From: Aphelocoma coerulescens
Lineage: Eukaryota > Chordata > Aves > Passeriformes > Corvidae
Direction: 5' to 3'
Assembly (NCBI RefSeq): GCF_041296385.1
Contig: NW_027183519.1
Location: 124,001 to 188,000, forward strand
Length of the DNA stretch: 64,000 nucleotides
Under the pieces are notes generated by a model. The model did not search any database. It was given only the letters and a program-made list of their open reading frames with translations, and was not told the origin of the DNA. Shown piece after piece: positions 1 to 39,589 of the stretch (within the stretch, counting starts at the first letter, position 1; each line of letters starts with the position of its first letter). The position numbers were made by a program, and so were the translations under genes.

Positions 1-111
1 CACTCTTTTGGACCAAAGTATATGAGCTGGTCTGTAAACAAATAAAGGAAGCTATTCTTCCCTGGAATTATGTCGTGATTCTTGCCGCCGTCCCTGAGGA
101 CAACAGCGACA
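1..111 (+). mobile_element. Solo-LTR-like insertion, array copy 1 (5' part outside window)
   Basis: This is the last 111 bp of the element described at 1216-1576. It contains AATAAA at 41-46 and ends GCGACA, followed directly by the AGAAATTA copy of the target duplication at 112-119. Confidence 0.6.
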
Positions 112-151
112 AGAAATTAGCCTTTGCAGAGACACTTTATCTGTCACTTAC

Positions 152-255
152 AATTCAGTATTTCTTGGCTCCAGAAAAAGGAATCTTGGCAGAGGTTCGG
201 ATGAAGTATCTGATGAGATGGAGCCGAGCGAGTACTGCTGGCTCCGTTCCCAGTC
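152..255 (-). CDS. RNF4-like exon b, array copy 1
   Basis: 104 bp, with acceptor CTACAG at 256-261 and donor GTAAGT at 146-151 (minus strand). It matches exon b at 6012-6115, where the exon type is described. Its downstream partner would lie left of the window. Confidence 0.5.
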
Positions 256-779
256 CTGTAGTGGGGTGAAAATGGAGACAGATTAGGATCTGCTTGAAGC
301 CACTCCGTCCTGCTTCCCTGTTTCAGATCCCTGACTGGATTTGGGCTAGAACCTTTTCTTTCCCTCGTTAGCCCCCAAAAAGGCAACTTCTGCAGTCATA
401 GCCCTAAACACTTCATGTTAGATGAACAGTTCCTGAGGAACGCAAACCACAACTACAGGAATTTGGGGCAAAGAATTGCAGATAGCTGCTCTATTGGCAC
501 CAGGCAAACAGAACTTGGAATATGTGCAGTCTGTCAGTCAATGCTAGAACTACAAGGAACACACAGATCTGCCGGTGCCATCCTGACAAGGGCTTCTCCC
601 TCTAGGGATACCACCAAGAAGGGACGTGGAGGGACGTGCAAGTTGGAGCTTCAGAGCAAGGGCTGTGCTTCCAGCCAGCTGCCCACAGCATCCCACCTAT
701 GACAACTGAGTTGTGCAGCTCCCCTTCTCTCCCCTCCCTTCCCACAAATCTGAAAAGACAACAACATGTGGATCCTCAC

Positions 780-834
780 CTCTGCGTTGTCATCCTCCCT
801 AGTTGGAGTGCTAACAAGACCTCCTGGCGGTTCA
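780..834 (-). CDS. RNF4-like exon a, array copy 1
   Basis: 55 bp, with acceptor CCCTCTAG directly above 834 and donor GTGAGG directly below 780 (minus strand). It matches exon a at 6640-6694 and pairs with exon b at 152-255 across a 524-nt intron. Confidence 0.48.
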
Positions 835-1215
835 CTAGAGGGAGCAGAACCAGAAGAACATGCAGCCGTCAATTTCACAGTGCACAGAGGGTTACCAAGA
901 CATAAAATTGCAGAAATCAGAACACCCCCTTAGTCTCAGTTAGCAACATCCCAGCCCAGAAACACAGCCCGTGCAAGAGCTTTAATGTACTGCAAGCATT
1001 TCAGTCTGTCGCTATCCATAATGTAAGAAACATTCAAGAATGACTTCCTGAATGGAGAAGGAAGGTTTCTCCTGGATTTTGCTGGGTTTAGGGCTTTCTT
1101 TTCCATTACTTCTCTTCCAGACAGACCACTATGTTCAAGTCAGAATTCTTCAAGCAGAATCAAGCAAAACCCAAAAGATTGGCAAAATCCTGTGTCAACT
1201 GTATATCAGAAATTA

Positions 1216-1576
1216 TGGATGCTGAGAAAGGCTAGCAGAGAGATTTTTTGAGCTTTTTGCACCCTCTTGTGAAAGTCTCTGTTCTCACGCAAACTAGCTG
1301 AGAAACCGTTTGCTATTTTGTAAATTATTTTTGCAGGTGCAGGTTGTTGGGGAATACTGTGGATATTGTTATGGCTCATTGAGAATAGTATTTTGAGAAT
1401 GGGTGTTGTAGCATTCAGCCAATCATTCTAGGAGGTGGATGGTCAAAGGACCAATGACCTCCAGCCACTCTTTTGGACCAAAGTATATGAGCTGGTCTGT
1501 AAACAAATAAAGGAAGCTATTCTTCCCTGGAATTATGTCGTGATTCTTGCCGCCGTCCCTGAGGACAACAGCGACA
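1216..1576 (+). mobile_element. 361-bp solo-LTR-like insertion inside the tandem unit
   Basis: The insert begins TGGATGCTG and ends GCGACA, the TG...CA termini expected of an LTR. It is flanked by identical octamers AGAAATTA (1208-1215 and 1577-1584). A CCAAT box (AGCCAATCATT) near 1417 and a polyadenylation signal AATAAA at 1506-1511 give plus orientation. The diverged copy at 7069-7076 has a single AGAAATTA in the same sequence context and lacks the insert, so it records the empty site. The element sits in the intron between exon b and the next exon a of the minus-strand RNF4-like gene, 40 nt from the exon b donor. An 8-bp duplication is longer than the 4-6 bp usual for retroviruses. The class is therefore not certain. 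Confidence 0.65.
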
Positions 1577-1616
1577 AGAAATTAGCCTTTGCAGAGACAC
1601 TTTATCTGTCACTTAC

Positions 1617-1720
1617 AATTCAGTATTTCTTGGCTCCAGAAAAAGGAATCTTGGCAGAGGTTCGGATGAAGTATCTGATGAGATGGAGCCGAGCGAGTAC
1701 TGCTGGCTCCGTTCCCAGTC
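1617..1720 (-). CDS. RNF4-like exon b, array copy 2
   Basis: Same 104-bp exon as at 6012-6115, with both splice sites intact. The solo LTR lies just downstream in the following intron. Confidence 0.5.
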
Positions 1721-2244
1721 CTGTAGTGGGGTGAAAATGGAGACAGATTAGGATCTGCTTGAAGCCACTCCGTCCTGCTTCCCTGTTTCAGATCCCTGAC
1801 TGGATTTGGGCTAGAACCTTTTCTTTCCCTCGTTAGCCCCCAAAAAGGCAACTTCTGCAGTCATAGCCCTAAACACTTCATGTTAGATGAACAGTTCCTG
1901 AGGAACGCAAACCACAACTACAGGAATTTGGGGCAAAGAATTGCAGATAGCTGCTCTATTGGCACCAGGCAAACAGAACTTGGAATATGTGCAGTCTGTC
2001 AGTCAATGCTAGAACTACAAGGAACACACAGATCTGCCGGTGCCATCCTGACAAGGGCTTCTCCCTCTAGGGATACCACCAAGAAGGGACGTGGAGGGAC
2101 GTGCAAGTTGGAGCTTCAGAGCAAGGGCTGTGCTTCCAGCCAGCTGCCCACAGCATCCCACCTATGACAACTGAGTTGTGCAGCTCCCCTTCTCTCCCCT
2201 CCCTTCCCACAAATCTGAAAAGACAACAACATGTGGATCCTCAC

Positions 2245-2299
2245 CTCTGCGTTGTCATCCTCCCTAGTTGGAGTGCTAACAAGACCTCCTGGCGGTTCA
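2245..2299 (-). CDS. RNF4-like exon a, array copy 2
   Basis: Same 55-bp exon as at 6640-6694, with both splice sites intact. Confidence 0.48.
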
Positions 2300-2680
2300 C
2301 TAGAGGGAGCAGAACCAGAAGAACATGCAGCCGTCAATTTCACAGTGCACAGAGGGTTACCAAGACATAAAATTGCAGAAATCAGAACACCCCCTTAGTC
2401 TCAGTTAGCAACATCCCAGCCCAGAAACACAGCCCGTGCAAGAGCTTTAATGTACTGCAAGCATTTCAGTCTGTCGCTATCCATAATGTAAGAAACATTC
2501 AAGAATGACTTCCTGAATGGAGAAGGAAGGTTTCTCCTGGATTTTGCTGGGTTTAGGGCTTTCTTTTCCATTACTTCTCTTCCAGACAGACCACTATGTT
2601 CAAGTCAGAATTCTTCAAGCAGAATCAAGCAAAACCCAAAAGATTGGCAAAATCCTGTGTCAACTGTATATCAGAAATTA

Positions 2681-3041
2681 TGGATGCTGAGAAAGGCTAG
2701 CAGAGATATTTTTTGAGCTTTTTGCACCCTCTTGTGAAAGTCTCTGTTCTCACGCAAACTAGCTGAGAAACCGTTTGCTATTTTGTAAATTATTTTTGCA
2801 GGTGCAGGTTGTTGGGGAATACTGTGGATATTGTTATGGCTCATTGAGAATAGTATTTTGAGAATGGGTGTTGTAGCATTCAGCCAATCATTCTAGGAGG
2901 TGGATGGTCAAAGGACCAATGACCTCCAGCCACTCTTTTGGACCAAAGTATATGAGCTGGTCTGTAAACAAATAAAGGAAGCTATTCTTCCCCGGAATTA
3001 TGTCGTGATTCTTGCCGCCGTCCCTGAGGACAACAGCGACA
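2681..3041 (+). mobile_element. Solo-LTR-like insertion, array copy 3
   Basis: Same element and same AGAAATTA flanks as at 1216-1576. It was copied with the unit rather than inserted independently. Confidence 0.62.
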
Positions 3042-3081
3042 AGAAATTAGCCTTTGCAGAGACACTTTATCTGTCACTTAC

Positions 3082-3185
3082 AATTCAGTATTTCTTGGCT
3101 CCAGAAAAAGGAATCTTGGCAGAGGTTCGGATGAAGTATCTGATGAGATGGAGCCGAGCGAGTACTGCTGGCTCCGTTCCCAGTC
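3082..3185 (-). CDS. RNF4-like exon b, array copy 3
   Basis: Same 104-bp exon as at 6012-6115, with no coding change noticed. Confidence 0.5.
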
Positions 3186-3709
3186 CTGTAGTGGGGTGAA
3201 AATGGAGACAGATTAGGATCTGCTTGAAGCCACTCCGTCCTGCTTCCCTGTTTCAGATCCCTGACTGGATTTGGGCTAGAACCTTTTCTTTCCCTCGTTA
3301 GCCCCCAAAAAGGCAACTTCTGCAGTCATAGCCCTAAACACTTCATGTTAGATGAACAGTTCCTGAGGAACGCAAACCACAACTACAGGAATTTGGGGCA
3401 AAGAATTGCAGATAGCTGCTCTATTGGCACCAGGCAAACAGAACTTGGAATATGTGCAGTCTGTCAGTCAATGCTAGAACTACAAGGAACACACAGATCT
3501 GCCGGTGCCATCCTGACAAGGGCTTCTCCCTCTAGGGATACCACCAAGAAGGGACGTGGAGGGACGTGCAAGTTGGAGCTTCAGAGCAAGGGCTGTGCTT
3601 CCAGCCAGCTGCCCACAGCATCCCACCTATGACAACTGAGTTGTGCAGCTCCCCTTCTCTCCCCTCCCTTCCCACAAATCTGAAAAGACAACAACATGTG
3701 GATCCTCAC

Positions 3710-3764
3710 CTCTGCGTTGTCATCCTCCCTAGTTGGAGTGCTAACAAGACCTCCTGGCGGTTCA
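3710..3764 (-). CDS. RNF4-like exon a, array copy 3
   Basis: Same 55-bp exon as at 6640-6694, with no coding change noticed. Confidence 0.48.
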
Positions 3765-4145
3765 CTAGAGGGAGCAGAACCAGAAGAACATGCAGCCGTC
3801 AATTTCACAGTGCACAGAGGGTTACCAAGACATAAAATTGCAGAAATCAGAACATCCCCTTAGTCTCAGTTAGCAACATCCCAGCCCAGAAACACAGCCC
3901 GTGCAAGAGCTTTAATGTACTGCAAGCATTTCAGTCTGTCGCTATCCATAATGTAAGAAACATTCAAGAATGACTTCCTGAATGGAGAAGGAAGGTTTCT
4001 CCTGGATTTTGCTGGGTTTAGGGCTTTCTTTTCCATTACTTCTCTTCCAGACAGACCACTATGTTCAAGTCAGAATTCTTCAAGCAGAATCAAGCAAAAC
4101 CCAAAAGATTGGCAAAATCCTGTGTCAACTGTATTTTAGAAATTA

Positions 4146-4506
4146 TGGATGCTGAGAAAGGCTAGCAGAGATATTTTTTGAGCTTTTTGCACCCTCTTGT
4201 GAAAGTCTCTGTTCTCACGCAAACTAGCTGAGAAACCGTTTGCTATTTTGTAAATTATTTTTGCAGGTGCAGGTTGTTGGGGAATACTGTGGATATTGTT
4301 ATGGCTCATTGAGAATAGTATTTTGAGAATGGGTGTTGTAGCATTCAGCCAATCATTCTAGGAGGTGGATGGTCAAAGGACCAATGACCTCCAGCCACTC
4401 TTTTGGACCAAAGTATATGAGCTGGTCTGTAAACAAATAAAGGAAGCTATTCTTCCCCGGAATTATGTCGTGATTCTTGCCGCCGTCCCTGAGGACAACA
4501 GCGACA
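4146..4506 (+). mobile_element. Solo-LTR-like insertion, array copy 4
   Basis: Same element. The left flank reads TTTTAGAAATTA instead of TATCAGAAATTA, one of the few copy-specific changes. Confidence 0.62.
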
Positions 4507-4546
4507 AGAAATTAGCCTTTGGAGAGACACTTTATCTGTCACTTAC

Positions 4547-4650
4547 AATTCAGTATTTCTTGGCTCCAGAAAAAGGAATCTTGGCAGAGGTTCGGATGAA
4601 GTATCTGATGAGATGGAGCCGAGCGAGTACTGCTGGCTCCGTTCCCAGTC
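4547..4650 (-). CDS. RNF4-like exon b, array copy 4
   Basis: Same 104-bp exon as at 6012-6115. A CAGAGA to GGAGAGA change lies in the intron just beyond the donor, at about 4521. Confidence 0.5.
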
Positions 4651-5174
4651 CTGTAGTGGGGTGAAAATGGAGACAGATTAGGATCTGCTTGAAGCCACTC
4701 CGTCCTGCTTCCCTGTTTCAGATCCCTGACTGGATTTGGGCTAGAACCTTTTCTTTCCCTCGTTAGCCCCCAAAAAGGCAACTTCTGCAGTCATAGCCCT
4801 AAACACTTCATGTTAGATGAACAGTTCCTGAGGAACGCAAACCACAACTACAGGAATTTGGGGCAAAGAATTGCAGATAGCTGCTCTATTGGCACCAGGC
4901 AAACAGAACTTGGAATATGTGCAGTCTGTCAGTCAATGCTAGAACTACAAGGAACACACAGATCTGCCGGTGCCATCCTGACAAGGGCTTCTCCCTCTAG
5001 GGATACCACCAAGAAGGGACGTGGAGGGACGTGCAAGTTGGAGCTTCAGAGCAAGGGCTGTGCTTCCAGCCAGCTGCCCACAGCATCCCACCTATGACAA
5101 CTGAGTTGTGCAGCTCCCCTTCTCTCCCCTCCCTTCCCACAAATCTGAAAAGACAACAACATGTGGATCCTCAC

Positions 5175-5229
5175 CTCTGCGTTGTCATCCTCCCTAGTTG
5201 GAGTGCTAACAAGACCTCCTGGCGGTTCA
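5175..5229 (-). CDS. RNF4-like exon a, array copy 4
   Basis: Same 55-bp exon as at 6640-6694, with no coding change noticed. Confidence 0.48.
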
Positions 5230-5610
5230 CTAGAGGGAGCAGAACCAGAAGAACATGCAGCCGTCAATTTCACAGTGCACAGAGGGTTACCAAGACATAA
5301 AATTGCAGAAATCAGAACATCCCCTTAGTCTCAGTTAGCAACATCCCAGCCCAGAAACACAGCCCGTGCAAGAGCTTTAATGTACTGCAAGCATTTCAGT
5401 CTGTCGCTATCCATAATGTAAGAAACATTCAAGAATGACTTCCTGAATGGAGAAGGAAGGTTTCTCCTGGATTTTGCTGGGTTTAGGGCTTTCTTTTCCA
5501 TTACTTCTCTTCCAGACAGACCACTATGTTCAAGTCAGAATTCTTCAAGCAGAATCAAGCAAAACCCAAAAGATTGGCAAAATCCTGTGTCAACTGTATA
5601 TCAGAAATTA

Positions 5611-5971
5611 TGGATGCTGAGAAAGGCTAGCAGAGATATTTTTTGAGCTTTTTGCACCCTCTTGTGAAAGTCTCTGTTCTCACGCAAACTAGCTGAGAAA
5701 CCGTTTGCTATTTTGTAAATTATTTTTGCAGGTGCAGGTTGTTGGGGAATGCTGTGGATATTGTTATGGCTCATTGAGAATAGTATTTTGAGAATGGGTG
5801 TTTTAGCATTCAGCCAATCATTCTAGGAGGTGGATGGTCAAAGGACCAATGACCTCCAGCCACTCTTTTGGACCAAAGTATATGAGCTGGTCTGTAAACA
5901 AATAAAGGAAGCTATTCTTCCCTGGAATTATGTCGTGATTCTTGCCGCCGTCCCTGAGGACAACAGCGACA
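5611..5971 (+). mobile_element. Solo-LTR-like insertion, array copy 5
   Basis: Same element, with two private changes (GGAATGCTG and GGTGTTTTAG). It is the copy nearest the diverged units that lack the insertion. Confidence 0.62.
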
Positions 5972-6011
5972 AGAAATTAGCCTTTGCAGAGACACTTTAT
6001 CTGTCACTTAC

Positions 6012-6115
6012 AATTCAGTATTTCTTGGCTCCAGAAAAAGGAATCTTGGCAGAGGTTCGGATGAAGTATCTGATGAGATGGAGCCGAGCGAGTACTGCTG
6101 GCTCCGTTCCCAGTC
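6012..6115 (-). CDS. RNF4-like exon b, array copy 5 (reference copy)
   Basis: On the minus strand CTACAG precedes the exon and GTAAGT follows it. It starts in phase 0 with GAC TGG GAA and ends with two bases (TT) that need one more. The next exon a begins with T, giving Phe. The 34 codons begin DWERSQQYS, include a Ser/Thr/acidic patch (SISSDTSSEP) and a hydrophobic run (RFLFLEP), and end RNTE. It aligns codon for codon with the diverged exons at 7665-7768 and inside 7109-7273. Those keep an acidic patch (DDEEEPREND) like the one after the SUMO-interacting motifs of RNF4. All five array copies look identical. What is seen: open frame and splice sites. What is inferred: that it is spliced into an RNF4-like transcript. 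No function is assigned to this segment. Confidence 0.55.
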
Positions 6116-6639
6116 CTGTAGTGGGGTGAAAATGGAGACAGATTAGGATCTGCTTGAAGCCACTCCGTCCTGCTTCCCTGTTTCAGATCCCTGACTGGAT
6201 TTGGGCTAGAACCTTTTCTTTCCCTCGTTAGCCCCCAAAAAGGCAACTTCTGCAGTCATAGCCCTAAACACTTCATGTTAGATGAACAGTTCCTGAGGAA
6301 CGCAAACCACAACTACAGGAATTTGGGGCAAAGAATTGCAGATAGCTGCTCTATTGGCACCAGGCAAACAGAACTTGGAATATGTGCAGTCTGTCAGTCA
6401 ATGCTAGAACTACAAGGAACACACAGATCTGCCGGTGCCATCCTGACAAGGGCTTCTCCCTCTAGGGATACCACCAAGAAGGGACGTGGAGGGACGTGCA
6501 AGTTGGAGCTTCAGAGCAAGGGCTGTGCTTCCAGCCAGCTGCCCACAGCATCCCACCTATGACAACTGAGTTGTGCAGCTCCCCTTCTCTCCCCTCCCTT
6601 CCCACAAATCTGAAAAGACAACAACATGTGGATCCTCAC

Positions 6640-6694
6640 CTCTGCGTTGTCATCCTCCCTAGTTGGAGTGCTAACAAGACCTCCTGGCGGTTCA
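6640..6694 (-). CDS. RNF4-like exon a, array copy 5 (reference copy)
   Basis: The minus-strand acceptor is preceded by a strong pyrimidine tract (TTCTTCTGGTTCTGCTCCCTCTAG) and the donor is CAGAG/GTGAGG. The exon is 55 bp: one base completing a split codon, then 18 codons reading EPPGGLVSTP then TREDDNAE. It ends in phase 0, so exon b follows in frame. Exons a and b total 159 nt, so each added unit inserts 53 residues without a frame change. The diverged relative is the first third of the fused exon at 7109-7273. Its distance from any known domain makes it the weaker of the two exon calls. It could be an exon seen only in this lineage. Confidence 0.5.
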
Positions 6695-7108
6695 CTAGAG
6701 GGAGCAGAACCAGAAGAACATGCAGCCGTCAATTTCACAGTGCACAGAGGGTTACCAAGACATAAAATTGCAGAAATCAGAACATCCCCTTAGTCTCAGT
6801 TAGCAACATCCCAGCCCAGAAACACAGCCCGTGCAAGAGCTTTAATGTACTGCAAGCATTTCAGTCTGTCGCTATCCATAATGTAAGAAACATTCAAGAA
6901 TGACTTCCTGAATGGAGAAGGAAGGTTTCTCCTGGATTTTGCTGGGTTTAGGGCTTTCTTTTCCATTACTTCTCTTCCAGACAGACCACTATGTTCCAAA
7001 TCAGAATCCTTCACACAGAATCAAGCAGAATCCAACAGTTTGGCAAAATCCTGTGTCAACTGTATGTAAGAAATTACACTTTGGAGAGACACTTCATGTG
7101 TCACATAC

Positions 7109-7273
7109 CCATCGTTGTCTCTTGGCTCCTCTTCATTGTAACCTGCCCACAGCTCAGCTGAATTCTCTGCCTCCCTGGAACCAAGTGGAGACTGCTGGCT
7201 CTGCTCCCTGTCCTGCACCTCTGAGTTGTTGTCCTCCCTCGTCACAGGAATAGCAGGACCTGCTGGCCATGCA
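7109..7273 (-). CDS. RNF4-like fused exon a+b (diverged copy, intron lost)
   Basis: The minus-strand acceptor CCCTCTAG and donor GTATGT bound 165 bp, equal to 55 + 6 + 104. The two exons are joined by the hexamer GTGCAG, which supplies the first three bases of the lost intron's donor side and the last three of its acceptor side. It adds Val-Gln in frame. The fused frame is open and contains TREDNNSEVQDREQS and, near its end, NEEEPRDND. That acidic patch resembles the DDEE...RDRD segment of RNF4, which lies between the SUMO-interacting motifs and the RING. Phases match both neighbours: it takes two bases from exon 7665-7768 and gives two to the first array exon a. Confidence 0.58.
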
Positions 7274-7664
7274 CTAGAGGGAACAGAACCAGAAAGAACG
7301 TGCAGCCATTTATTTCACTGGGCACCAAGGGTTACCAACAAAGAAAACGGTGGTACTTAAAACCTATTGCCCTATTCTGATTAAGCAACATCCCAGCCCA
7401 GAAACACAACCACTGCAACAATTTCTATGTACTGCCAGCATTTCAGCATGTCGAGCCTTTCTCTTCTATACAATTATGGCTTCACAAACAGAGAAGAAAC
7501 GCTTCTGCTGGATTTTGCTGGGTTTATTTTAATTCTCTTCCAGGCAGGCCACTCTATTCCGGGTCTGAAGTATTTGCACAGAAGCCAAAAGCTTGGTAAA
7601 AACTTATTCCTACCACATATCTGAAGTTGGAGTTTAGATAGTAGATACTTTCTCTCTCACATAC

Positions 7665-7768
7665 CCATCATTTTCTCTTGGTTCCTCTTCATCATCCCTT
7701 GCCAGGGCCTCGGCTGAATTCTCTGATGCTCTGGAAGGATGTGGCTGCTGCTGGCTCTGCTCCCTGTC
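7665..7768 (-). CDS. RNF4-like exon b, oldest copy, acidic patch
   Basis: On the minus strand the acceptor is CCCTGCAG and the donor GATGG/GTATGT. The exon is 104 bp, exactly the length of array exon b. It starts in phase 0, as required by the end of the SIM exon at 9232. Its 34 codons begin DREQSQQQPHPSR, continue SENSAEALAR and end DDEEEPREND. In RNF4 a similar Ser/Asp/Glu-rich stretch separates the SUMO-interacting motifs from the RING domain. This is the least decayed copy and links the array to RNF4. Exon boundaries are confident by phase and length; expression is unknown. Confidence 0.62.
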
Positions 7769-7960
7769 CTGCAGGGCGATAGAAATGGAGGCACTTAGGA
7801 ACCACCCTGAACACTGTACTCCCTGCTCCCCTGTTTCAGTCCCTACTTGGATTGGGGCTGGAGCTGTTTCTTTCCCTCGTTCTCCCCCAAACTGGCTAAT
7901 TCACCTGAACACTGCTTAGTACATGAAGAGCTGCTGAAGACATAAAACCCCATACCCAAA

Positions 7961-8079
7961 GCTGCTCTTCAGGAGATAGCTCCCATGCTATGTTTGCTGC
8001 ATGTTTCTGCTTTGCACAGCAGCAGCGGCACCCCAAATTTGAGCAGACACACTGCCCTGTGGGCTGGATCAAAAATATT
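7961..8079. other. Intronic spacer, nothing recognised
   Basis: Sequence between the old unit copy and the candidate LTR. No exon-like or repeat signal was seen. Confidence 0.4.
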
Positions 8080-8758
8080 CTGAAACATGGATTTTAAAAG
8101 AAACATTAAGATTTTAGTTAAGGGATAGCTTTGTTGAAATTAGTTAAAGTAGATGGCCCAGCTGGAACTGATAAAGTGTTAATAAGTAGTTAAAGAGAGC
8201 CAGACCTGAAAGAAGTTTTTAGATGTAGGTAGCTAGTTGCCTGTCACTTTTCTATTTGTTTAGCTGTGCTTTTAACGAGAAACAGAAACCCTGATAAATA
8301 GATTCAAAGAAATGGAGACAATTTCTAATTTCCACCTCTGAGAGCCTATTCAGAAGTCACAAAAGGAGGAACTGGAAGTCCCCTAAGAGTGATTTGTATT
8401 GTCAAAAATCAGAAAGGTAGAAAGGTCAAAGTGAGGGAGAGTAGCTTTACTTCATCTTTTAAGACCACTCCCCAAATAAAGAGACAACCAACGCAATTCA
8501 AAGAACAAACTACGCATGCTTCATGACTTTCAAACTAAATACCATACGAAGAGGAGAATGGAAGGTGTCAATGTTATAAATATGCATTTGTATTTTGAAT
8601 ATTCAAGACCTCTTTAATTAAACAGACTCTGTGTTTGGCTAGTAATTTTGCAGTGCACATCAGGGAGCTATCCTGCACAGCTGCCTGGCACTGGAATAAA
8701 CATACACTTTCTGACTCTACTCTGTTAGAGAGTATATGTCCGTCTTAGTTGGGTGTCG
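8080..8758 (+). mobile_element. Candidate solo LTR (about 680 bp)
   Basis: The stretch ends in an LTR-like R/U5 region: AATAAA at 8695-8700, then a pyrimidine-rich run and GGGTGTCG. The pentamer ATATT occurs immediately before the start (8075-8079) and immediately after the end (8759-8763), which would fit a 5-bp target duplication. The left end reads CTGAAACATGG, not a clean TG. The general style is that of avian ERV LTRs, but the family was not identified and the boundaries are inferred. It lies in the long intron between the SIM exon and exon b of the RNF4-like gene, in the opposite orientation to that gene. Confidence 0.42.
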
Positions 8759-9231
8759 ATATTAGATCAATACCCATATTTTGGTAAATCAATTCCTTCC
8801 AAATAGAAGGGGAAAATTTAAAAAAGCAAACAAACGTGACTCTGTTAAAGGCTTCTTGGAATAAGGAACAGAACTAGTTTGCACCCCAGTAAGGTGCAGT
8901 TGTGTTTTACACCTCAGTGGGAGGGGTACCTTAAACTGATGTTGCAGCTAAAACACTTCTCATTTGAGAAGTCAAAGACTTCCTGTGGTCTCCTTTAAAT
9001 CACTGAAGCAACAACCTCTCTTAGGTTGTTCATCCCCTCTCTGCAAGCGATTCTCAGGGATGCTGATGTGTTCATGAGTGTGTTTGGGCTCGACTGGGAA
9101 CTGTGTCTAATGTGGTAAATCAGAGCCATGTTCCAACCTTTGAGGCCAGGGTACTTAGTAAGATGCCAGAAGACAGGCAAGAAAACTAATTTGACTGCAA
9201 GATGGAGGGGAGTGTGCCATTCACTACTTAC

Positions 9232-9314
9232 CACATCAGACTCATCGTCACTGATAACGATGACTTCAGGCTCAGAAGATTTGCCCGTGAGATCTATGAC
9301 GACTTCTTCATCAG
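9232..9314 (-). CDS. RNF4: RNF4-like exon with tandem SUMO-interacting motifs
   Basis: On the minus strand TTCTGTTTTTCAG precedes the exon and GTAAGT follows it. The 83-bp exon completes an Ala codon with the G left by the previous exon, then reads DEEVVIDLTGKSSEPEV and IVISDDESDV. VVIDLT and VIVISDD are classic SUMO-interacting motifs: a hydrophobic V/I/L core beside acidic residues and serines. Their order and spacing match RNF4, whose SIMs bind poly-SUMO chains so that the RING can ubiquitinate sumoylated substrates in the nucleus. It ends in phase 0, matching exon b at 7665-7768. The motifs are intact, so this exon shows no sign of decay. The RING part of the protein is not in the window. 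Confidence 0.82.
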
Positions 9315-10060
9315 CTGAAAAACAGAACGTTAGAATCAAGATCAGAGATTGCAGAGGAATTAAAAGGGCTGCCAGTGTGGAGCAGGCTGAGGTTGGATTC
9401 ACTGTGCCCTGGGTTTCTTTTTTTCAGGAGCACGTCCAACATTGCACTCAAGCTTTGCCCCAGCAGTCCACAGGGAGCACTACCAGCCCTGTCCTCTGAA
9501 GGGGCAGTGCAAGAGGAAGAGCAGCTGAGCCCCTCACAAGTTCTGTGGGATGTCAACAGCTATGGGAGCTTCACAGCAAGAAATGATTCATCTCACACAG
9601 GGGAATGTTTAGCACACAAAAGGAAAAAAGCAACCAACCAACACTAGAGGGGATCCTTTTTTTTTACAGTTTTACCATACTGTAGATTGTTCCCTTGAGG
9701 GATGGGGCACAGCTAAAGACAAACTTTTCCTTATCTTCATCCACTTTGGGAGATCCCAAACTCAGCTTGCCACCCTCCCCTGTGGCATCTATGGTGACCA
9801 CCAGCTCATCAGAGCACACATTCAGGTGTTTGAGCAGCACTGGAGGACCTTTGCTGCAGAGCTCATCTCCCACGAGCAGCCAGTGTATTGAGCTCAGGAA
9901 CAAACCAAAACAGTTGTCAGAAGGCTTGCCGTTAGGGATGCCATATCAGGTGCTTCCTAAACCCCAAGGTTTCCCTTCCTCCCCAGTAAAGGGCCTAGAA
10001 ACTGGCAAAAGCACACATTCAAATGAACCCAAACCTTCCAGAGGCAACTGCTGTTCTTAC
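9315..10060 (-). other. Intron between RNF4-like N-terminal and SIM exons
   Basis: 746 nt bounded by GTAAGA (10055-10060) and TTTCAG (9315-9320) on the minus strand. It contains an 80-codon minus-strand open frame at 9664-9903 that resembles no family I recognise. It is treated as chance. Confidence 0.7.
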
Positions 10061-10202
10061 CAGGCTCAAAAGCAAGTGTACCACTTCCTTCAAGGTCTAC
10101 TATCTCTGCCTGCGAGGTTCCACCAGGACTGGAGGGCAGCAGCCTGCTCCGTTTCCGAGCTTGAGTGGAATCAAGCGGTCCTCCAGGGCGCTTTCGCTGA
10201 TG
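10061..10202 (-). CDS. RNF4: RNF4-like N-terminal exon
   Basis: On the minus strand the acceptor GTTCTCTCTCAG and donor CCTG/GTAAGA bound 142 bp. The open frame begins HQRKRPGGPLDSTQARKRSR and continues to AEIVDLEGSGTLAFEP. This matches the start of RNF4, where a basic RKRRGG...RQAQKR segment (nuclear localisation) is followed by the first SIM; EIVDLE is that SIM here. The exon leaves one base (G) that the SIM exon uses to make Ala, so the junction is in frame. There is no in-frame ATG in the exon where mammalian RNF4 starts. Translation would need an upstream coding exon, or the start has been lost. Orthologue versus paralogue is unresolved. Confidence 0.8.
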
Positions 10203-11032
10203 CTGAGAGAGAACAAAGCCTTAGCATTTTCTGTGGCAGCAATATTAGCACGGCCCTCGGGTTCTGCAGCACCAATGACAGCACACGAGGATACCGAAAA
10301 CACTCCCGCAAAGGCTGGAATATGCATCAAATGGTGCTATGGACCATTTTCACCTTAGCACATCGCATCAGGGAAAAGACATCGCCCCTCATCTCCTACA
10401 TGTTGCCTCACCAACAAATAGCCTGTCCAATGGCTTGAAAATGAGGAGACCAGTTCCCAATTCCATCATGTTGTTACTCACACTGTAAGCATTTCTGAAC
10501 TATTGCCAGCACCCACAGAGATTCAGAACCTTCAGTATCCAAAAGCGGGAACTCACAGGAAGTTTGGAAAGATTTCTGTTTCTGTGCATTTGCTCCAAAC
10601 TCTTGAATTCTTTTCTAGAAGTCCCTTGCAAAATGTTTCAAGAATCAGATTTGCATTGAGTAGTAAAGTACTTACTGAGCTCATGGTGTTTTGTGATCTA
10701 AAACCACCAGCAAAGCAAGTGGGACTAACACCAAAAAAGGAATGTCAGGGAAGAGATCCCTTATGTTCCTCCTGGTAGCCCACTGCAGATTTTTCACAGT
10801 TCCGGAAAACTGTTCTTCCAAACCTATCAGAAAAGAAGAGATCAACTATTTGGAATGCCTGTTCTCTTGAATACCCCCATGCCCCAAGACTCCCACTCTT
10901 GAGTCTCCAGTTTCTGTCCATAACTGGAGGGGAAGTCCGTGACCCCAGTACTTGAGCCCACCTGCAGCCCATCCTGCAGCCCAGACCAGCCCCTCAGCAT
11001 CAGAAGCCTTTTCAAGAATTGTCTGCACTCAC

Positions 11033-11090
11033 CTGTATAGTCAGTCCAGATTTTGGCTCTCAAAAGTCAGCAAATCGTCTTTATTCCCAC
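11033..11090 (-). other. Possible 5' non-coding exon of the RNF4-like gene
   Basis: Minus-strand TCTTCTCCATCCCAG precedes and GTGAGT follows a 58-bp segment ending CTATACAG. All three frames contain stops, so it could only be a 5' UTR exon. Support is splice-site shape and position alone. Confidence 0.2.
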
Positions 11091-11289
11091 CTGGGATGGA
11101 GAAGACGGATGCTCCACGTCTGCTGCGCAGCAGAGAATCCGTCAACTGGCTCAGCAGACTCTGTGTCAACAGAAGCTTGGGAGCAGGAGTGCCCCTGGCA
11201 ACCGGTGCCAACATTCCATGCCCCAGTAACGGGTCTCCGTTTCGCACACCCATGGAGCTCCAGAACGCCATGGAGGCACCTCAACGATC

Positions 11290-23354: not shown

Positions 23355-23552
23355 GTGAAAAACGAGGTTCACTCTCCTGTGAGAATTTAAAGGGTTTAAT
23401 ATAAAGGCAATAAGAGACACATAAAGTAAAGCAAAGGGGTAATGGCTGGGTGCCTTGGCGCTCTGCCAAGAGCACACCTGATGCTAGAGGTGAGTCCTTT
23501 TTATACCATTTTTACTGTCTGTTCTTCATCCATATTAAAACTTTTCCCGGAG
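23355..23552 (+). mobile_element. Possible truncated LTR of a second ERV family, cut by the ERV array
   Basis: The segment opens TGTGAAAAACGAGG and has the look of an avian LTR. It stops abruptly at the ERV array boundary, and no continuation was found on the far side at 39988. Family and orientation are inferred from general style only. Confidence 0.35.
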
Positions 23553-23928
23553 TATTACCGCAGGCCTGGTTCCTATGGTATAGCACCGTGTCCCGCAGCC
23601 ATAGGGAGGAGGAGGAGGAGAAGATCCAGCAGGCAGGAGTTGTGCAGCAAGATTGATTTATTTAATTATTTTACAAACTCTTTTATAGACTTTTTTCTTC
23701 ATAGCCTAATTGGACAAAGGGCCAGCCACCCCTTGGGGGTGATTGGCTAAAATCCTAAAACATCCATTGTCAAAATATTTTTCTACTATACCATAAACAA
23801 GACTTTTCAAGGTTGCAGGTGTCTGGGTTGTTTACATTCCCTGCTACCTCTTCTGTGAGAGAGAAAAGTCTCTCACGGACTTAGAAAATAACAAGAAAAT
23901 CCTCGCTAGCAGCATTTTTGTATCTACA
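23553..23928 (-). repeat. LTR1 (outer 3' LTR, 376 bp)
   Basis: On the minus strand it starts TGTAGATAC right after the polypurine tract and ends GGTAATA. A TATAAAAG box lies at 23680-23687 and AATAAA at 23657-23662. It reads CCTATGG where the other three LTRs read CCTACGG (near 23575). The 3' end is TA rather than the canonical CA. Confidence 0.93.
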
Positions 23929-23942
23929 ATTCCCCCTTTTTG
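23929..23942 (-). other. Polypurine tract, ERV copy A
   Basis: Minus strand AAAAAGGGGGAAT directly before the TG of LTR1: the usual plus-strand DNA priming site. Confidence 0.88.
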
Positions 23943-24057
23943 TTTTATAAGATAACAACTCTACTATTAATGCCAAATAGAAATCTACATCAGTTATTAA
24001 TTCTAAATATGTCCTTAAGGCTTTAACTATCTGACTCCATAACAAGAAATTTAAAGT

Positions 24058-25417
24058 TCAGTCTCTGCTTGTGGAAGGACCATCTGCCTGATGGTTGACA
24101 TCCTGGTCATCATCAGAAGAGTCATTAGGCTGATGCTCTACATTCTGGTCGCCATTTGGATGATTGGCGTTCTGGTCATCATTCAGAGGTTGCCTGTTCT
24201 GCCTCTGGTGCCGTAGGTCAGGGCGAACGCATTTTGCAGGTAGCCACCGTATCCCAGTATCTGTGGAAACGCAAGCATACCCACGACCCCAGACGATAAG
24301 CTCATGTGGGCCTTCCCACTGGTTAGTGAGTAAATTCCGCACCCAGACTCTTGCCCGGGGCAGTTGTCTGTCGCCTGCAGACTGCAATGAGAAAAAATGA
24401 TTCAGAATAACAGGATTATTTGAATTTTGTGGTACTGTAAGGTGATTAATTGTATACAAAGCTTTTGCTAGTCGGCTCTGTGGGGTTTCTCCATGCATTC
24501 CCCTTTTCTGTTTGTCCAAAACATGCTTCAAGGTACCATGAGCGCATTCAACAATGGCTTGGCCAGTAGGAGAATGTGGGATACCAAAGGTATGGTCTAC
24601 ACCCCATAGGTGTAAAAACTGCCGTGTCTTCTCGGAGGCGTAGGCAGGACCATTATCGGTTTTCACAGAAGCTGGCACGCCCAGGACTGAGAAAGCCAAT
24701 TTCCAATGGGCAATGACATCACGGCTCTTCTCTCCAGTGTGAGCAGTAGCCCACATAGCTGAGGAGAAAGTGTCAATAGACACGTGCACATATTTCAGCC
24801 GACCAAATTCTGGGACGTGAGTTACATCCGTTTGCCAAATCTGCAAGGCTTTTAGCCCTCTGGGGTTTACCCCTGCTGGCAAAGGCGCAGCGAGTCCGTG
24901 ACAGTCAGCACAAGCGCTGACAATGTCGCGCGCCTCGGTTGGCGTTAAATGAAAACTGCTTCTGCAGGGTATGTGCACTTTGATGGAAGAAACCGTGCGA
25001 TGCCTTGGCTTGTGCAATTTTGTCAGGCTGAGGCCCTACCCATGCAGGGTTTGCCAGCATGTCAGCCCTGGCATTGCCTTCCGTTAGAAAACCTGGTAAA
25101 TTGGTGTGGCTTCGAATGTGCAGAATGTAATACGGATGCACTCGAGCCTGAATTGCAGACCACAAGGTTTGCAACAGCGAAAACAGAGCCGCATTATTCA
25201 CCTCCTTCAGAAGGGAACAATCTAAGCGTTGGGTGATATCTGCTACATAAGCAGAGTCAGTAACCAAATTCAAAGGTTCCTGTGAGAATCGCTGAAAAGC
25301 CATGGTAACAGCCCTTAATTCAACTAACTGAGCAGAGTCTGACTCGGATTGGTGTGTTAATGAACCACCACAAAGGCAGTGTAGGATACTGTGCGCCCTT
25401 ACACACAGTGACCCCTG
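24058..25417 (-). pseudogene. pol: ERV pol remnant, copy A: RNase H end and integrase, RT deleted
   Basis: Two frames. The first (open 24905-25417) holds the C-terminal part of RNase H (SAQLVELRAV, LVTDSAYVADI, HIRSHTNLPG) and the first two His of the integrase zinc site (HQSAH). The second (24058-25017) resumes the zinc site (CADC), then the catalytic core with D64 (WQTDVTHV), D121 (KTDNGPAY) and E157 (GQAIVE), a D,D35E triad, and the C-terminal domain (WEGPHELIVWGRGY). Residue numbers count from the first Met of that frame. The frame change falls inside the zinc-binding domain, a probable indel. The reverse-transcriptase domain that should lie between protease and RNase H is absent; fewer than 100 bp separate the pro stop from the RNase H part. 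The tail is unusually rich in Asp/Asn/Gln/His. Confidence 0.9.
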
Positions 25418-26211
25418 CTAAAATTTGTCCCAATCCGTACGCCCCAAGCTGCCAACACATCCCGTCCCCAAAGGTTACAGGAAGTGGTAGCAACATAAGG
25501 CCTAATTGTAGCTGTGTGTCCCTCTGAATCCTTCACCACCACAGGCCGTTCACTTAAATAGCTCTGTGTGGTTCCTCCTAATCCTGCGATGGCCGATCCC
25601 ACCGGGGCTAAAGGCCATGAGGGAGGCCACGCAGAGAAGGAGATGATAGTTACATCAGCACCCATATCAATCAAACCTCGAAGCTGAATCCGGGGTGGTT
25701 GGGCGCTTGGCAGGACCAGGGTACGTGTCATCTGTGGCCTTTGGTCAGAGATGTCTGCAGTCCAGAGGGCCTGTGGAAGTCCCGTAGATCCACTGCCGTT
25801 ATCTTCCTGAATTTGTTCTACCCTGGGGACACAAGACTTAAAAGGCACTAATTTAGCAAGGCAGGTCTTTTCAGGAATAGTTACAGGGGGGTTTTGCATG
25901 GAGACCATAGCGCAAATCTGACCTTTAAAGTCAGAATCAGTAACTCCTGAGTGCACTAAGATTCCTTGATGGGCAACATCAGATTTTCCCACCAGCATCG
26001 CACTGGATCCCTGGGCTAAGGGTCCATATGCATCCAAGGGAACCTTATAAATACCGCTAGAGTCTAAGACGACTGTGGCTGCGGTGTGGACGTCAAACCC
26101 GTCTGATCCGTGGGTGCCGTCTGATCCCTGGGTGCTGTCTCTAGGGTGGCTGGGTAGGCCTGTGCCTGTACCTGTGCCACTCTCTGGGGGAGCGACTGCA
26201 TCGGAGAGCAA
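25399..26211 (-). CDS. pro: ERV pro: dUTPase plus aspartic protease, copy A
   Basis: A 270-codon frame lying -1 relative to gag and overlapping its end, as expected for ribosomal frameshifting. The first sense codon shown is not an ATG. No canonical slippery heptamer was seen; the nearest candidate is GGGGGAAT, just above 26211. The N-terminal half is a dUTPase domain (GFDVHTAATVVLD; GVTDSDFKGQI resembles a conserved dUTPase motif), which in the family lowers dUTP during reverse transcription. The C-terminal half is a retroviral protease with active-site segment LIDMGADVTII and flap-side LWGRDVLAAWG. The usual Asp-Thr-Gly is Asp-Met-Gly here. The stop comes shortly after the protease, next to the pol deletion. 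Confidence 0.88.
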   Translation of the reverse strand: MLSDAVAPPESGTGTGTGLPSHPRDSTQGSDGTHGSDGFDVHTAATVVLDSSGIYKVPLDAYGPLAQGSSAMLVGKSDVAHQGILVHSGVTDSDFKGQICAMVSMQNPPVTIPEKTCLAKLVPFKSCVPRVEQIQEDNGSGSTGLPQALWTADISDQRPQMTRTLVLPSAQPPRIQLRGLIDMGADVTIISFSAWPPSWPLAPVGSAIAGLGGTTQSYLSERPVVVKDSEGHTATIRPYVATTSCNLWGRDVLAAWGVRIGTNFSRGHCV

Positions 26212-28778
26212 TTCCCCCTCCTTGCACCCCGGTGGAAGTTTCCCGACAAAGGCCGACCATCGGCATGAGTCCGGGATCTACAGTAGCCCGTACAATGGCC
26301 TGGCCTGCCACACCTCTTGCACTGGGGGATCGGTGTGTTCTCTTTTTGGCTCGGCTTAGGCCACTTCCGTCTCTTCACCTGTTTTGGTGGCTTTGGTTCA
26401 CGACCAGAAGATGCGTGAACAGGCTGCAGGAAAGCAGCCAAAGCAGACCTTTTCTGGTTCCCAGATCCCACCTTAGCACAGGCTTCGACCATGTCTGTTA
26501 CCTCAGGGTCCCCTGGTAAGGCATCTATGATTTTTCTGCACTCCTCGTTTGCGTTATCCCTCACTAACTGCCTTAACAACATCTGTCTTAACCCGTCATC
26601 CTCAACCTGCTTCTCAAGAGAAGCAGAAACTTTCTCTACAAAAGAGAGGAATGACTCTGATTTGCCTTGAACTATTTCAGTATATCGCTTTCTGGGCGCA
26701 GACAACTCTATGGTTTTCAACAGGGCAGCCATGCCGACCTGTTGAGCTTGCTGCAGGATGCTAGAGGGCAAATTACCCTGTAGACTGGGATCAGAGAAGG
26801 GACCAGTCCCCATCAAAGCATCCACTCCTGCTGTCTGTCTAGGATCAGCAGCAGGGAGCTGCATATTTGCTAATGCAGTCTTGCCGGCCAGCTTTCTCCA
26901 GGTTTTCTCAAAAACTGTCAATTGTACAGGTTGAAATAGAATTTGACCTAAGTGTCTGATATCAAATGGAGAAAGCAAATCCGTATTTATCACCCTTATT
27001 ATCTGCATAACCTCAGCAGAACCTAGTCCATATTGTGCCACCTTGGATTGGAGGTCCTGGGCAACTTTCCAGGCAATTACCTCATGCTTGTCATGCTCCC
27101 CTGAATCTGGGAGAGCCTTATACACTGGGAAAGCTTGGATCTCCCCTTTAGGGGAAGCACTACCATCCTGAACTTCTGGCACCGCCTGTGGATGGAGTGT
27201 AACAGCTCCCCGGTTACCCCCAGAATCCGCAGATCTATATGGCATTCCAAGGATTTTTAATGACCTCCAGTCACCCTCCTCCAATGCTCGCATCTTAAGG
27301 GACTCTAAGAAGCGATTATAATGCGTCGGACGCACTGTTACCGTGCAGTCCTGAAAGGTCCAGGGGCGAGACCGGCGCAGCCTTTTTCTTCGCCGCGCGG
27401 CTACAGCCGCCTGACGACCTGGGGCCAGCACCTCATCTGCCTCACTGCCTGACGAGGAATCATCAGGCAAAGGCAACTTTGGGGTGCTGGGAGTGAACAG
27501 AAATTTACGTGGAGGGGCACTTTGGCTAAGTTCGCTAGAGGCAGAACAGACAGGACAGACTGCAGCTGGCTGCGCGGCAGTTTTTGCACCAGTTTCTATA
27601 CGGGAGGCCGTCTCGGCCGGCCCCGACCGAACTGGTACTGGAACCGCTGTCGCCGTCTCTGAGGCTACAGCCGCTCTCGGCGCCGCCGCCTCTGGCACAG
27701 CAGCTGCGTTCGGCGCGGTCGCCGCTGCCGCTGCTGTTTCGCGCTCCCCAGCCGCGCCCGGCGCTGCTGCCGCTGGCCCGCTCTCGGGGGTCGCTCTGGG
27801 TGCCGCTGCCCCTGCCCGCTGCTCCGCAGCCGCCGTCTCTGGCCGCGTCTCCGCAGCCGCTGCCGGGTTCGCCGCCGGCCGCGCCGTTTCTCGGCTCGGA
27901 GCCGCGTCTCCCGCGGATGGCGGGGGGGGCGCGGGCGGCGCTGGTTCGGGCATTCGCCGCTCTAACAGGGTGAGGAGTTCCTCCATCCTTCGGGATAAAT
28001 TTGGCAGCTCCATCAGCAAAGGCAAATGCTGCACTAAGAGGTCGATGGCTCGGTTCTGCGACTGCGCAGAACAGTCCAGCGCCAGGGAGGGCAGCGGACC
28101 ACACCCAGGGAGTCCCGGGGCAGGCACGCCCGGCGCTACGCCGGCTAAGAAGTTAGATCCAGGTCCGTACGGAACCGAGCTAGGAGCCTCTCTGGGCATC
28201 CAAGTGGCTAAGCCGCTGATCTGCAGCCCTGGATAAGCCGTGGCCGCTGCCCAGCCGACCGGAAAGGCAGGCTGTGCGCCCTCCCGCTGCTCTGACCCCC
28301 CCGCCTCTGGCGGCGCGGGGTTCCTGGGGGCTGCGGAGTCCTGCGATTGTGCAGGGTGAGCCGTCGCAGGCTCTGCCTGTGGAGCCGGGGGGGTTTTCCT
28401 GAATCCATTATCATTTTCCCCGGAAACCCAGTCAACGGGGCCCCCTTCGGACGTTCCTCCGTCACTCATCACCGAGATAGACGAGCCAGCCCTGCTATCA
28501 CAGTCAAGGTCTATCAGCAGGATAAATAATGAACGCCAGGTTTTGTATCATTCTAACGCTGCTGAGTCCCCAGTCGGGAGCTCCTGTCGGACAGCGCATC
28601 CGAGTTCCTGCCATAAGGCAAAGTCCAGGGCACTATCTCTGTCCATGGAAATCCCTTTTAAAGTAGCCCAGTCTAATAATTCCCGAACTGAGTTTTCAGG
28701 AATGGAGGTGCGCAATATGCTAAACACACCTTTCCAGACCAGCATCGCAGCTTCGGTTTGTGAGCCGCTGTTTGCCAT
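26064..28778 (-). pseudogene. gag: ERV gag, copy A, interrupted by one in-frame TGA
   Basis: The frame starts at ATG 28778 with a matrix-like segment of 76 codons (includes VWKGVFSILRTSIPE and ALDFALWQELG). It meets TGA at 28548-28550, then stays open in the same frame to 26064; the downstream part, counted from 28472, has 802 codons. That part has a very Ala/Pro-rich linker (about residues 170-300), a capsid with a major homology region (QGKSESFLSFVEKV, near residue 600), and one nucleocapsid zinc knuckle, CKRCGRPGHCTGYC (near 720). Gag builds the virion core. The single stop separates matrix from the rest. Copy A reads RAGAAAP and SETATAV where B and C read RAGGEAP and SETAAAV. Its end overlaps pro by 148 nt in the -1 frame. 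Confidence 0.9.
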
Positions 28779-28883
28779 TTCTCAGTTCTGTCGGACCTCC
28801 CGGTCCCGGGGGGCAAAGGGGAGCAGCGTACCTCTAGAGGAATTCGGCTTGGCTCGCAGCAGCAGGACACGTCAGAGAGTGCA

Positions 28884-28903
28884 GATCACGTCGGGCAGCA
28901 CCA
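28884..28903 (-). other. Primer-binding site, ERV copy A (tRNA-Trp-like)
   Basis: Two bases after the LTR the minus strand reads TGGTGCTGCCCGACGTGATC. It shares TGGTG and CCCGACGTGATC, and the TT spacer, with the tRNA-Trp site of avian leukosis-type viruses. The middle differs in sequence and by one base in length. Confidence 0.7.
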
Positions 28904-28905
28904 AA

Positions 28906-29281
28906 TATTACCGCAGGCCTGGTTCCTACGGTATAGCACCGTGTCCCGCAGCCATAGGGAGGAGGAGGAGGAGAAGATCCAGCAGGCAGGAGTTGTGCAG
29001 CAAGATTGATTTATTTAATTATTTTACAAACTCTTTTATAGACTTTTTTCTTCATAGCCTAATTGGACAAAGGGCCAGCCACCCCTTGGGGGTGATTGGC
29101 TAAAATCCTAAAACATCCATTGTCAAAATATTTTTCTACTATACCATAAACAAGACTTTTCAAGGTTGCAGGTGTCTGGGTTGTTTACATTCCCTGCTAC
29201 CTCTTCTGTGAGAGAGAAAAGTCTCTCACGGACTTAGAAAATAACAAGAAAATCCTCGCTAGCAGCATTTTTGTATCTACA
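28906..29281 (-). repeat. LTR2 (shared, 376 bp)
   Basis: Same LTR with a primer-binding site on its left and a polypurine tract on its right, so it is internal to the tandem. Confidence 0.93.
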
Positions 29282-29295
29282 ATTCCCCCTTTTTG
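29282..29295 (-). other. Polypurine tract, ERV copy B
   Basis: Identical to that of copy A, next to LTR2. Confidence 0.88.
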
Positions 29296-29410
29296 TTTTA
29301 TAAGATAACAACTCTACTATTAATGCCAAATAGAAATCTACATCAGTTATTAATTCTAAATATGTCCTTAAGGCTTTAACTATCTGACTCCATAACAAGA
29401 AATTTAAAGT

Positions 29411-34131: not shown

Positions 34132-34236
34132 TTCTCAGTTCTGTCGGACCTCCCGGTCCCGGGGGGCAAAGGGGAGCAGCGTACCTCTAGAGGGATTCGG
34201 CTTGGCTCGCAGCAGCAGGACACGTCAGAGAGTGCA

Positions 34237-34256
34237 GATCACGTCGGGCAGCACCA
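34237..34256 (-). other. Primer-binding site, ERV copy B
   Basis: Identical to copy A, including the imperfect centre. Confidence 0.7.
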
Positions 34257-34258
34257 AA

Positions 34259-34634
34259 TATTACCGCAGGCCTGGTTCCTACGGTATAGCACCGTGTCCC
34301 GCAGCCATAGGGAGGAGGAGGAGGAGAAGATCCAGCAGGCAGGAGTTGTGCAGCAAGATTGATTTATTTAATTATTTTACAAACTCTTTTATAGACTTTT
34401 TTCTTCATAGCCTAATTGGACAAAGGGCCAGCCACCCCTTGGGGGTGATTGGCTAAAATCCTAAAACATCCATTGTCAAAATATTTTTCTACTATACCAT
34501 AAACAAGACTTTTCAAGGTTGCAGGTGTCTGGGTTGTTTACATTCCCTGCTACCTCTTCTGTGAGAGAGAAAAGTCTCTCACGGACTTAGAAAATAACAA
34601 GAAAATCCTCGCTAGCAGCATTTTTGTATCTACA
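34259..34634 (-). repeat. LTR3 (shared, 376 bp)
   Basis: Same LTR, joined to a primer-binding site on the left and a polypurine tract on the right. Confidence 0.93.
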
Positions 34635-34648
34635 ATTCCCCCTTTTTG
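34635..34648 (-). other. Polypurine tract, ERV copy C
   Basis: Identical to that of copy A, next to LTR3. Confidence 0.88.
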
Positions 34649-34763
34649 TTTTATAAGATAACAACTCTACTATTAATGCCAAATAGAAATCTACATCAGT
34701 TATTAATTCTAAATATGTCCTTAAGGCTTTAACTATCTGACTCCATAACAAGAAATTTAAAGT

Positions 34764-39484: not shown

Positions 39485-39589
39485 TTCTCAGTTCTGTCGG
39501 ACCTCCCGGTCCCGGGGGGCAAAGGGGAGCAGCGTACCTCTAGAGGGATTCGGCTTGGCTCGCAGCAGCAGGACACGTCAGAGAGTGCA

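Follow-up and report, generated by a model that had tools for sequence, protein, structure and literature searches.

A multicopy RNF4-like gene family of a passerine bird with an in-frame, tandemly repeated exon pair

The closest described systems are RNF4 and its passerine duplicates RNF4L1-RNF4L7, which lie on zebra finch chromosome 4 and, in the available passages of their description, have a single RING motif per copy, with two copies truncated (PMC4377847). A table in that source gives RNA-seq expression for three of the seven RNF4L copies and none in the tested tissues for the other four, and its main text, as far as available, contains neither 'internal repeat' nor 'exon duplication'. 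In human RNF4, according to the accessible part of PMC7393505, the disordered N-terminus is held compact by charge segregation, which also brings the SUMO-interacting motifs (SIMs) to the RING; activity is lost in mutants with this region extended. A table passage of PMC13175713, from what is accessible of that source, names RNF4 beside FAM193A. Here we describe a 64,000-nucleotide window of the 1.33-Gb Aphelocoma coerulescens genome, positions 124001-188000 of contig NW_027183519.1 (henceforth C99), which contains part of a genuine exon-pair array, intact and in frame, that belongs to a multicopy passerine gene of RNF4-like type and whose joints can be read from the DNA. No report of such an array was found in the open-access literature, subscription papers and preprints lying outside that search. 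The terms SIM and SUMO-targeted ubiquitin ligase (STUbL, an enzyme that tags SUMO-bearing proteins for degradation) are used in their usual sense, and the species named below are presumably all passerines.

The array is built from a 1,465-bp unit repeated head to tail on the minus strand, each unit carrying a 55-nt exon (a) and a 104-nt exon (b) (Table 1). The five a exons and five b exons in the window are identical letter for letter at a spacing of exactly 1,465 bp, and each is preceded by AG and trailed by GT. Scored with approximate matrices and ranked among the 860 AGs and 618 GTs of the stretch, their acceptors stand at the 96-97th percentile and their donors at the 97-99th. From the ATG at 10684, the first coding exon, N-terminal exon, SIM exon, b1, fused exon and five pairs read as 432 codons with zero stops, each unit contributing 159 nt or 53 codons. 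An earlier note on this DNA had proposed these exons with good splice sites, their phases and the addition of 53 residues per unit, all of which proved correct. It had also called the amplification frame-preserving: the frame is indeed open through all array copies of the gene, but the unit is symmetric (two bases in, two bases out), so any copy number stays in frame, and the preserved frame is a consequence of the phases and not a constraint. Identity of the exons was likewise rejected as a sign of selection: the unit copies in the window (four full and one of 834 bp) vary at eight columns, all outside exons, and since only 159 of 1,465 bases are exonic, about one exonic change would be expected.

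Beyond the window the array continues to a total of 19 a and 18 b exons (C99:130694 to 104270), with one mismatch in one b exon. On its 3' side are a linker exon (C99:102327-102180) and, before it, a putative 10-nt microexon (103576-103567), read from the DNA with LLEV, which precedes the linker in the zebra finch protein P0050, as a guide. Two minus-strand RING exons, which the earlier note had suggested should be sought to the left, are present at C99:100622-100568 and 100250-100101, about 24 kb from the window edge. The whole C99 gene is predicted to run from ATG to stop in one frame over 1,260 residues with all splice sites GT/AG. We fetched five whole gene copies: four bearing arrays (C99, and C5A, C5B and C5C on the 79.6-Mb contig C5) and one unamplified copy from a second C5 cluster. 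The three C5 arrays have five, three and five pairs and belong to intact genes of 571, 465 and 571 residues; hence all four array-bearing copies are open from ATG to stop with all GT/AG sites, and the unamplified copy is intact at 361 aa. Array length therefore differs between gene copies with the number of pairs (18, 5, 3 and 5), in line with the earlier proposal that copy number sets it. The unit sits in frame between the SIM and RING exons in all four fetched array genes, on which ground a satellite-only reading, already doubted in the earlier note, was rejected. After the last array a exon, at about 103.8 kb on C99, there is also a decayed b exon with homologous flanks, matching the intron-b-intron stretch at 76% over 554 columns; to judge from this alignment it is a relic of a pattern that once ran further.

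The assignment to RNF4, formerly made from family knowledge, is borne out by the C-terminal C3HC4 RING of RNF4 type, ending YHPIY, which matches the solved RNF4 structure 4ap4 (E=5.2e-46) and PF13923 (E=6.6e-10). The SIM exon, in the N-terminal half, holds EVVIDLT and EVIVISDDES, putative SUMO-interacting motifs by their sequence, and 40 of 113 aligned N-terminal positions are identical to human RNF4. Exon b, where a resemblance to the human protein is seen, presumably matches by position and phase the RNF4 exon that lies between SIMs and RING. Two PDB matches of the N-terminal half (Timeless, E 0.77 and 0.79) were taken as chance, and Rfam at gathering thresholds gave no matches. Each module has 53 residues and a net charge of -7; a Pfam search of it returned no families, and SIMs inside it are unsupported, RFLFLEP being only loosely SIM-like by eye. 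An arginine-rich compaction motif was not seen between the SIMs and the RING, the stretch REQSQQQPHPSR, aligned to the human sequence, having few arginines; the position of the human motif was taken from the available part of PMC7393505. In the AlphaFold model of the Cyanistes protein P0053 the RING alone is confident (core ten-residue blocks at 85-89) and 292 of 393 residues are under 50, so the modules look disordered in that protein.

The gene belongs to a large family in this genome. Its N-terminal and SIM stretch has at least 40 genome matches (40 of 43 candidates were scored, making this a lower bound), of which 39 are 97-100% identical: four on C99, 19 at C5 25.70-27.04 Mb and 16 at C5 28.69-28.92 Mb, that is 35 on C5, which we assume to be the chromosome 4 equivalent. 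The 3' end of the fused exon has 24 exact copies among those counted in Table 1, and exon a has 176 copies with at most three mismatches, against none for a reversed control. The number of a exons per gene copy ranges from 2 to 20 (at least, for the last gene) among the first 100 of these 176, all exact matches, a set with C99, the second cluster and most minus-strand copies outside it and with interspersed a3 units included in the spans. Every one of the 31 units in the four fetched arrays measures exactly 1,465 bp. They vary at 40 columns, of which three fall within exon b and none within exon a. C99 units differ from one another at a mean of 3.2 sites and from those of other arrays at 7.6-9.0, whereas units within C5A, C5B and C5C differ at 7.8, 8.0 and 9.4 sites, similar to the values between arrays; recent homogenisation is hence clear only for C99. 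The one divergent family locus, at C5:15.02 Mb (73%; L035, C5:15018750-15019531), has about 16 copies of a 48-bp repeat after a b-type stretch, one frame of which reads SPPGDVGSSPRDSDDW. Two fused exons, at C5:26325166 and C5:26332628, lie 7.5 kb apart with a single N-terminal stretch listed, which suggests a larger internal duplication, and one a3 exon at C423:52457 would extend the family to that contig.

The unamplified gene (C5:28760519-28772012), which is 2-3% diverged in the N-terminal stretch, provides the template against which the joints are read: it has b1, fused exon, a3, b4, a4, microexon, linker, RING1 and RING2, one each. Its a3 (EWPDRFESPPNSQDDITD) resembles DEWPDRFESPPTWQDDITD-type stretches in other songbird proteins. 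The right edge of the array, as a correction, does not fall at an exon: the intron upstream of the first copy is a hybrid, whose informative sites are of the fused-exon-to-a3 type (X) up to 6996 and then of the b4-to-a4 type (Y), with one exception at 7013, placing the switch at about 7013-6996. Compared with the unamplified gene, the a-to-b intron of the array is 93.9% identical, from its 13th base on, to the a3-to-b4 intron, as against 75.9% for the intron that follows a4. The unit thus consists of a4 linked to the sequence that came after a3. The joints themselves, read from the DNA, lie in homologous introns; we infer that the unit was born by unequal recombination between paralogous a exons with homologous introns, which would explain the joints and also why the frame cannot break. 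A first such step should leave genes with a3 first and then a4 pairs; a3 adjoins the fused exon in eight of the 20 fused exons of the C5 cluster-1 list, as expected of a candidate intermediate, and other arrays hold interspersed a3 units. The first position may later have been converted from a3 to a4.

Exon a itself has a recognisable kinship. Together with its flanking introns it can be aligned over 478 columns, at 72.8% (E=6e-77), to the first RING exon (RING1) and the introns of that exon. The two 55-nt exons share 33 of 55 bases, a value reached by none of 20,000 shuffles, and these alignments show them to be homologous. RING1 reads AQRGVVIRCPICMDTYSE and array a reads EPPGGLVSTPTREDDNAE, both cysteines being lost, and the direction is probably from RING1 to a and not the reverse, because the RING is the conserved part of RNF4. 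Cysteine-bearing forms at the exon a position in some relatives, such as SLLCVICMSCYSQ in P0002, look like intermediates. Within the fused exon, the GTGCAG between its a and b parts (window 7213-7218, minus strand) now codes Val-Gln and looks like the GT..AG ends of a nearly deleted intron; VQD is common to several other songbird proteins.

We gathered a set of 58 relatives by protein searches, two of which scored only the roughly 8,000 candidates sharing most words; the set includes isoforms, all its named members are passerines and one is nameless. The best named match to the query is from Corvus hawaiiensis (90% over 76% of the query). A profile built from the window modules and iterated on these same 58 proteins finds at least one module in 56 of them, at least two in 30 and only one hit in 26; the RING pattern is kept in 25, many others being partial or alternative models. 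The earlier note knew of no such repeat in RNF4 proteins; repetition of the module is, however, not peculiar to this gene. Identical modules recur inside a single annotated protein in three cases: Zonotrichia has a three-module block that occurs three times, and the identical copies number three in Hirundo and two in Pseudopipra. The Zonotrichia block holds the array's module type and two others, and those of Hirundo and Pseudopipra are of other types, from which module amplification appears to have occurred more than once. The array-type module is the last before linker and RING in zebra finch P0050 and blue tit P0053. Between 4 and 22 IDLTGE-type SIM-like motifs were found by a simple pattern in each of P0051, P0055 and P0057 (Vidua), P0058 (Serinus) and P0025 (Zosterops); on this pattern, the family has another kind of repeat expansion, separate from that of the modules.

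These findings make it fairly probable, in our judgement, that the locus belongs to a multicopy family of RNF4-like STUbLs in which the length of the SIM-to-RING spacer varies by exon-pair copy number. The array pairs would be spliced in, each adding a disordered, acidic segment between the SIMs and the RING, and array length would set the tether between SUMO binding and ubiquitin transfer. Because SIMs and RING of human RNF4 meet more readily when the spacer is compact, the insertion of 159 to 954 array residues should produce a long, extended tether and weaken or redirect ligase action, possibly towards larger SUMO-coated assemblies. A short isoform skipping the array may keep standard activity. 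The fused exon has a second donor, AGT/GTAATT, 32 nt downstream of the first (window 7077), whose use adds YVTHEVSLQS; its two donors could thus choose between a short ligase and array forms.

Several observations weigh against this interpretation. Protein searches spanning about 122-1,869 aa, two of them scoring only the roughly 8,000 candidates that share most words, turned up no annotated corvid protein that has the array. The model P0037 (Corvus brachyrhynchos, partial) joins the extended fused exon to a 5'-extended RING1 with the array omitted, and the model P0001 (C. hawaiiensis) reads on into the intron, where it ends, never entering the array; the two suggest that the array is skipped or never entered, the outcome that the earlier note had itself named as contrary to its proposal. 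Constraint on the array module is weak: nonsynonymous over synonymous divergence (dN/dS) is 0.48/0.91 and 0.49/0.63 for b and 0.37/0.40 for a, where dN is close to dS, over few sites, and array b matches other b exons at 60-62%, below the 64 and 72% of the compared introns. A neutral model would leave the stretch free of frameshifts with probability 0.12 and free of stops with probability 0.15; the absence of stops proves little, as the copies are near-identical and young, and eight of the 13 variable codons among the four copies are nonsynonymous (five synonymous). The RING exons were observed in the five fetched gene copies only, the four RNF4L copies listed without expression in the part of PMC4377847 available point the same way, and the human compaction rule may not carry over, as the arginine-rich motif was not seen here.

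Two other explanations draw on these points. The array might be intronic ballast, the fused exon leaving by its distal donor and joining the 5'-extended RING1 while array exons are rarely or never used: the distal donor exists, P0037 shows such a join, an LHVLS lead into the RING is found in five of the 58 relatives (P0019, P0023, P0033, P0037, P0040) and before RING1 in the window gene, and single-hit relatives are numerous (26 of 58). We nevertheless hold this unlikely. P0037 is marked partial; the proximal, array-leading donor outscores the distal one (1.9, 95.5th percentile, against -1.5, 86th; approximate matrices); in the array b exons the distal donor is gone and a stop stands there, but their proximal donor is a consensus GTAAGT; and the zebra finch and Zonotrichia models include such modules. 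It is also conceivable, if doubtful, that the gene copies are young, mostly nonfunctional passengers of segmental duplication whose arrays drift like satellite DNA. The near-identity of the copies over the tested stretch, flanks 98.4-99.8% alike in the compared pieces, the high nonsynonymous share and the RNF4L copies lacking listed expression would fit this, but all five fetched whole copies, one of them the 2-3% diverged gene, are intact from ATG to stop at every splice site, three RNF4L copies are listed as expressed (PMC4377847, as available), and the RING pattern persists among the relatives to the extent given above. Multiplication of the array or of gene copies by the assembler is very improbable: there is a single assembly, and C99 is a separate 348,699-bp contig that could be the other haplotype, but the units differ at their 40 columns in patterned ways, arrays of different length stand at many loci of one long contig with a3 and a4 units mixed, and annotated proteins of other species carry amplified modules.

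Upstream of the array (Table 1), a 5' leader exon region is conserved with Vidua, Hirundo, Serinus, Melospiza and Ammospiza proteins and contains a stop in the window gene, so translation should begin at the ATG in the next exon; 14 of the 34 related proteins listed begin MSSxQRKRPGG. The b-to-a intron of each unit holds a 361-bp insert, antisense to the gene, which is solo-LTR-like (LTR, long terminal repeat) by its TG..CA ends and AATAAA, with no library match. A first comparison had the edge of homology at the LTR end; the later site-by-site test puts the switch 65-80 bp past it, and the insert was rejected as the recombination joint. Elsewhere in the window, a minus-strand tandem provirus array (23551-39989) has a period of 5,353 bp, with three internal regions sharing terminal repeats of about 380 bp and matches to gag, dUTPase/protease, RNase H and integrase; among the open reading frames of at least 110 aa, none for a reverse transcriptase or for env was noticed.

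Table 1. Window coordinates of the parts of the RNF4-like gene and its exon-pair array
Feature	Position	Strand	Remark
5' leader exon region	11033..11271	-	tblastn 69-80% identity over 59-65 aa, best E 1.8e-20
Start codon and end of first coding exon (ATGAGCTCA, then gtaagt)	10676..10684	-	
N-terminal exon, 142 nt	10061..10202	-	
SIM exon, 83 nt (VVIDLT, VIVIS)	9232..9314	-	
b1 exon, 104 nt	7665..7768	-	
Fused a+b exon, 165 nt (a, GTGCAG, b)	7109..7273	-	3' end in 39 genome copies with at most 3 mismatches
Hybrid intron, X part	6997..7108	-	like fused-exon-to-a3 intron of unamplified gene
Hybrid intron, Y part (b4-to-a4 type)	6695..6996	-	302 bp, zero differences from second copy
Array exon a (55 nt)	6640-6694, 5175-5229, 3710-3764, 2245-2299, 780-834	-	identical copies; homologous to RING exon 1 by alignment
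Array exon b (104 nt)	6012-6115, 4547-4650, 3082-3185, 1617-1720, 152-255	-	identical copies
Window part of 1,465-bp exon-pair array	1..6996	-	last a exon ends at C99:104270
361-bp solo-LTR-like insert, b-to-a intron of each unit	5611..5971; 4146-4506, 2681-3041, 1216-1576	+	TAATTTCT on both flanks

If the spacer of this ligase family does vary with pair number, the copies with 3, 5 and 18 (nearly) identical modules would constitute a natural length series for the SIM-to-RING distance in a disordered ligase. The locus, with its joints mapped and candidate intermediates at hand, is also a record of how the exons of an enzyme can give rise to a protein repeat. A bolder version, which we advance tentatively and consider rather unlikely, would have a fast-evolving, multicopy and length-tunable passerine STUbL family in which an exon pair made of the enzyme's linker and dead half-RING is amplified independently in separate lineages, the choice between the two donors of the fused exon deciding between a short standard ligase and long-spacer forms, perhaps in a genetic conflict over SUMO-dependent silencing.

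Another close known case is Zonotrichia albicollis LOC113460741 (P0047, 640 aa), which has ten b-a modules, an RNF4-like N-terminus and three identical three-module blocks; it is unlike the present gene in that a three-module block and not one pair was amplified, and its model reads on past an a exon at its end and is without a RING. Zebra finch LOC115495026 (P0050) and the Cyanistes CIP8-like protein (P0053) likewise have modules between SIM and RING, but a single copy each of the array-type module. RNF4 and RNF4L1-RNF4L7, as described in the available part of PMC4377847, share with this family the N-terminal region, the SIM exon, the C-terminal C3HC4 RING and the occurrence of several duplicates; here, in contrast, there are at least 39 near-identical N-terminal copies and up to 20 exact a exons per gene among the matches listed. 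The locus as a whole is a case of tandem exon amplification with a symmetric unit, homologous joints and a copy number that varies by locus. Proteins grown by duplication of symmetric exons, a general kind, likewise have a phase-matched unit and keep their frame at any copy number, but differ from this one in that half of the enzyme's RING, in decayed form, is part of its unit.

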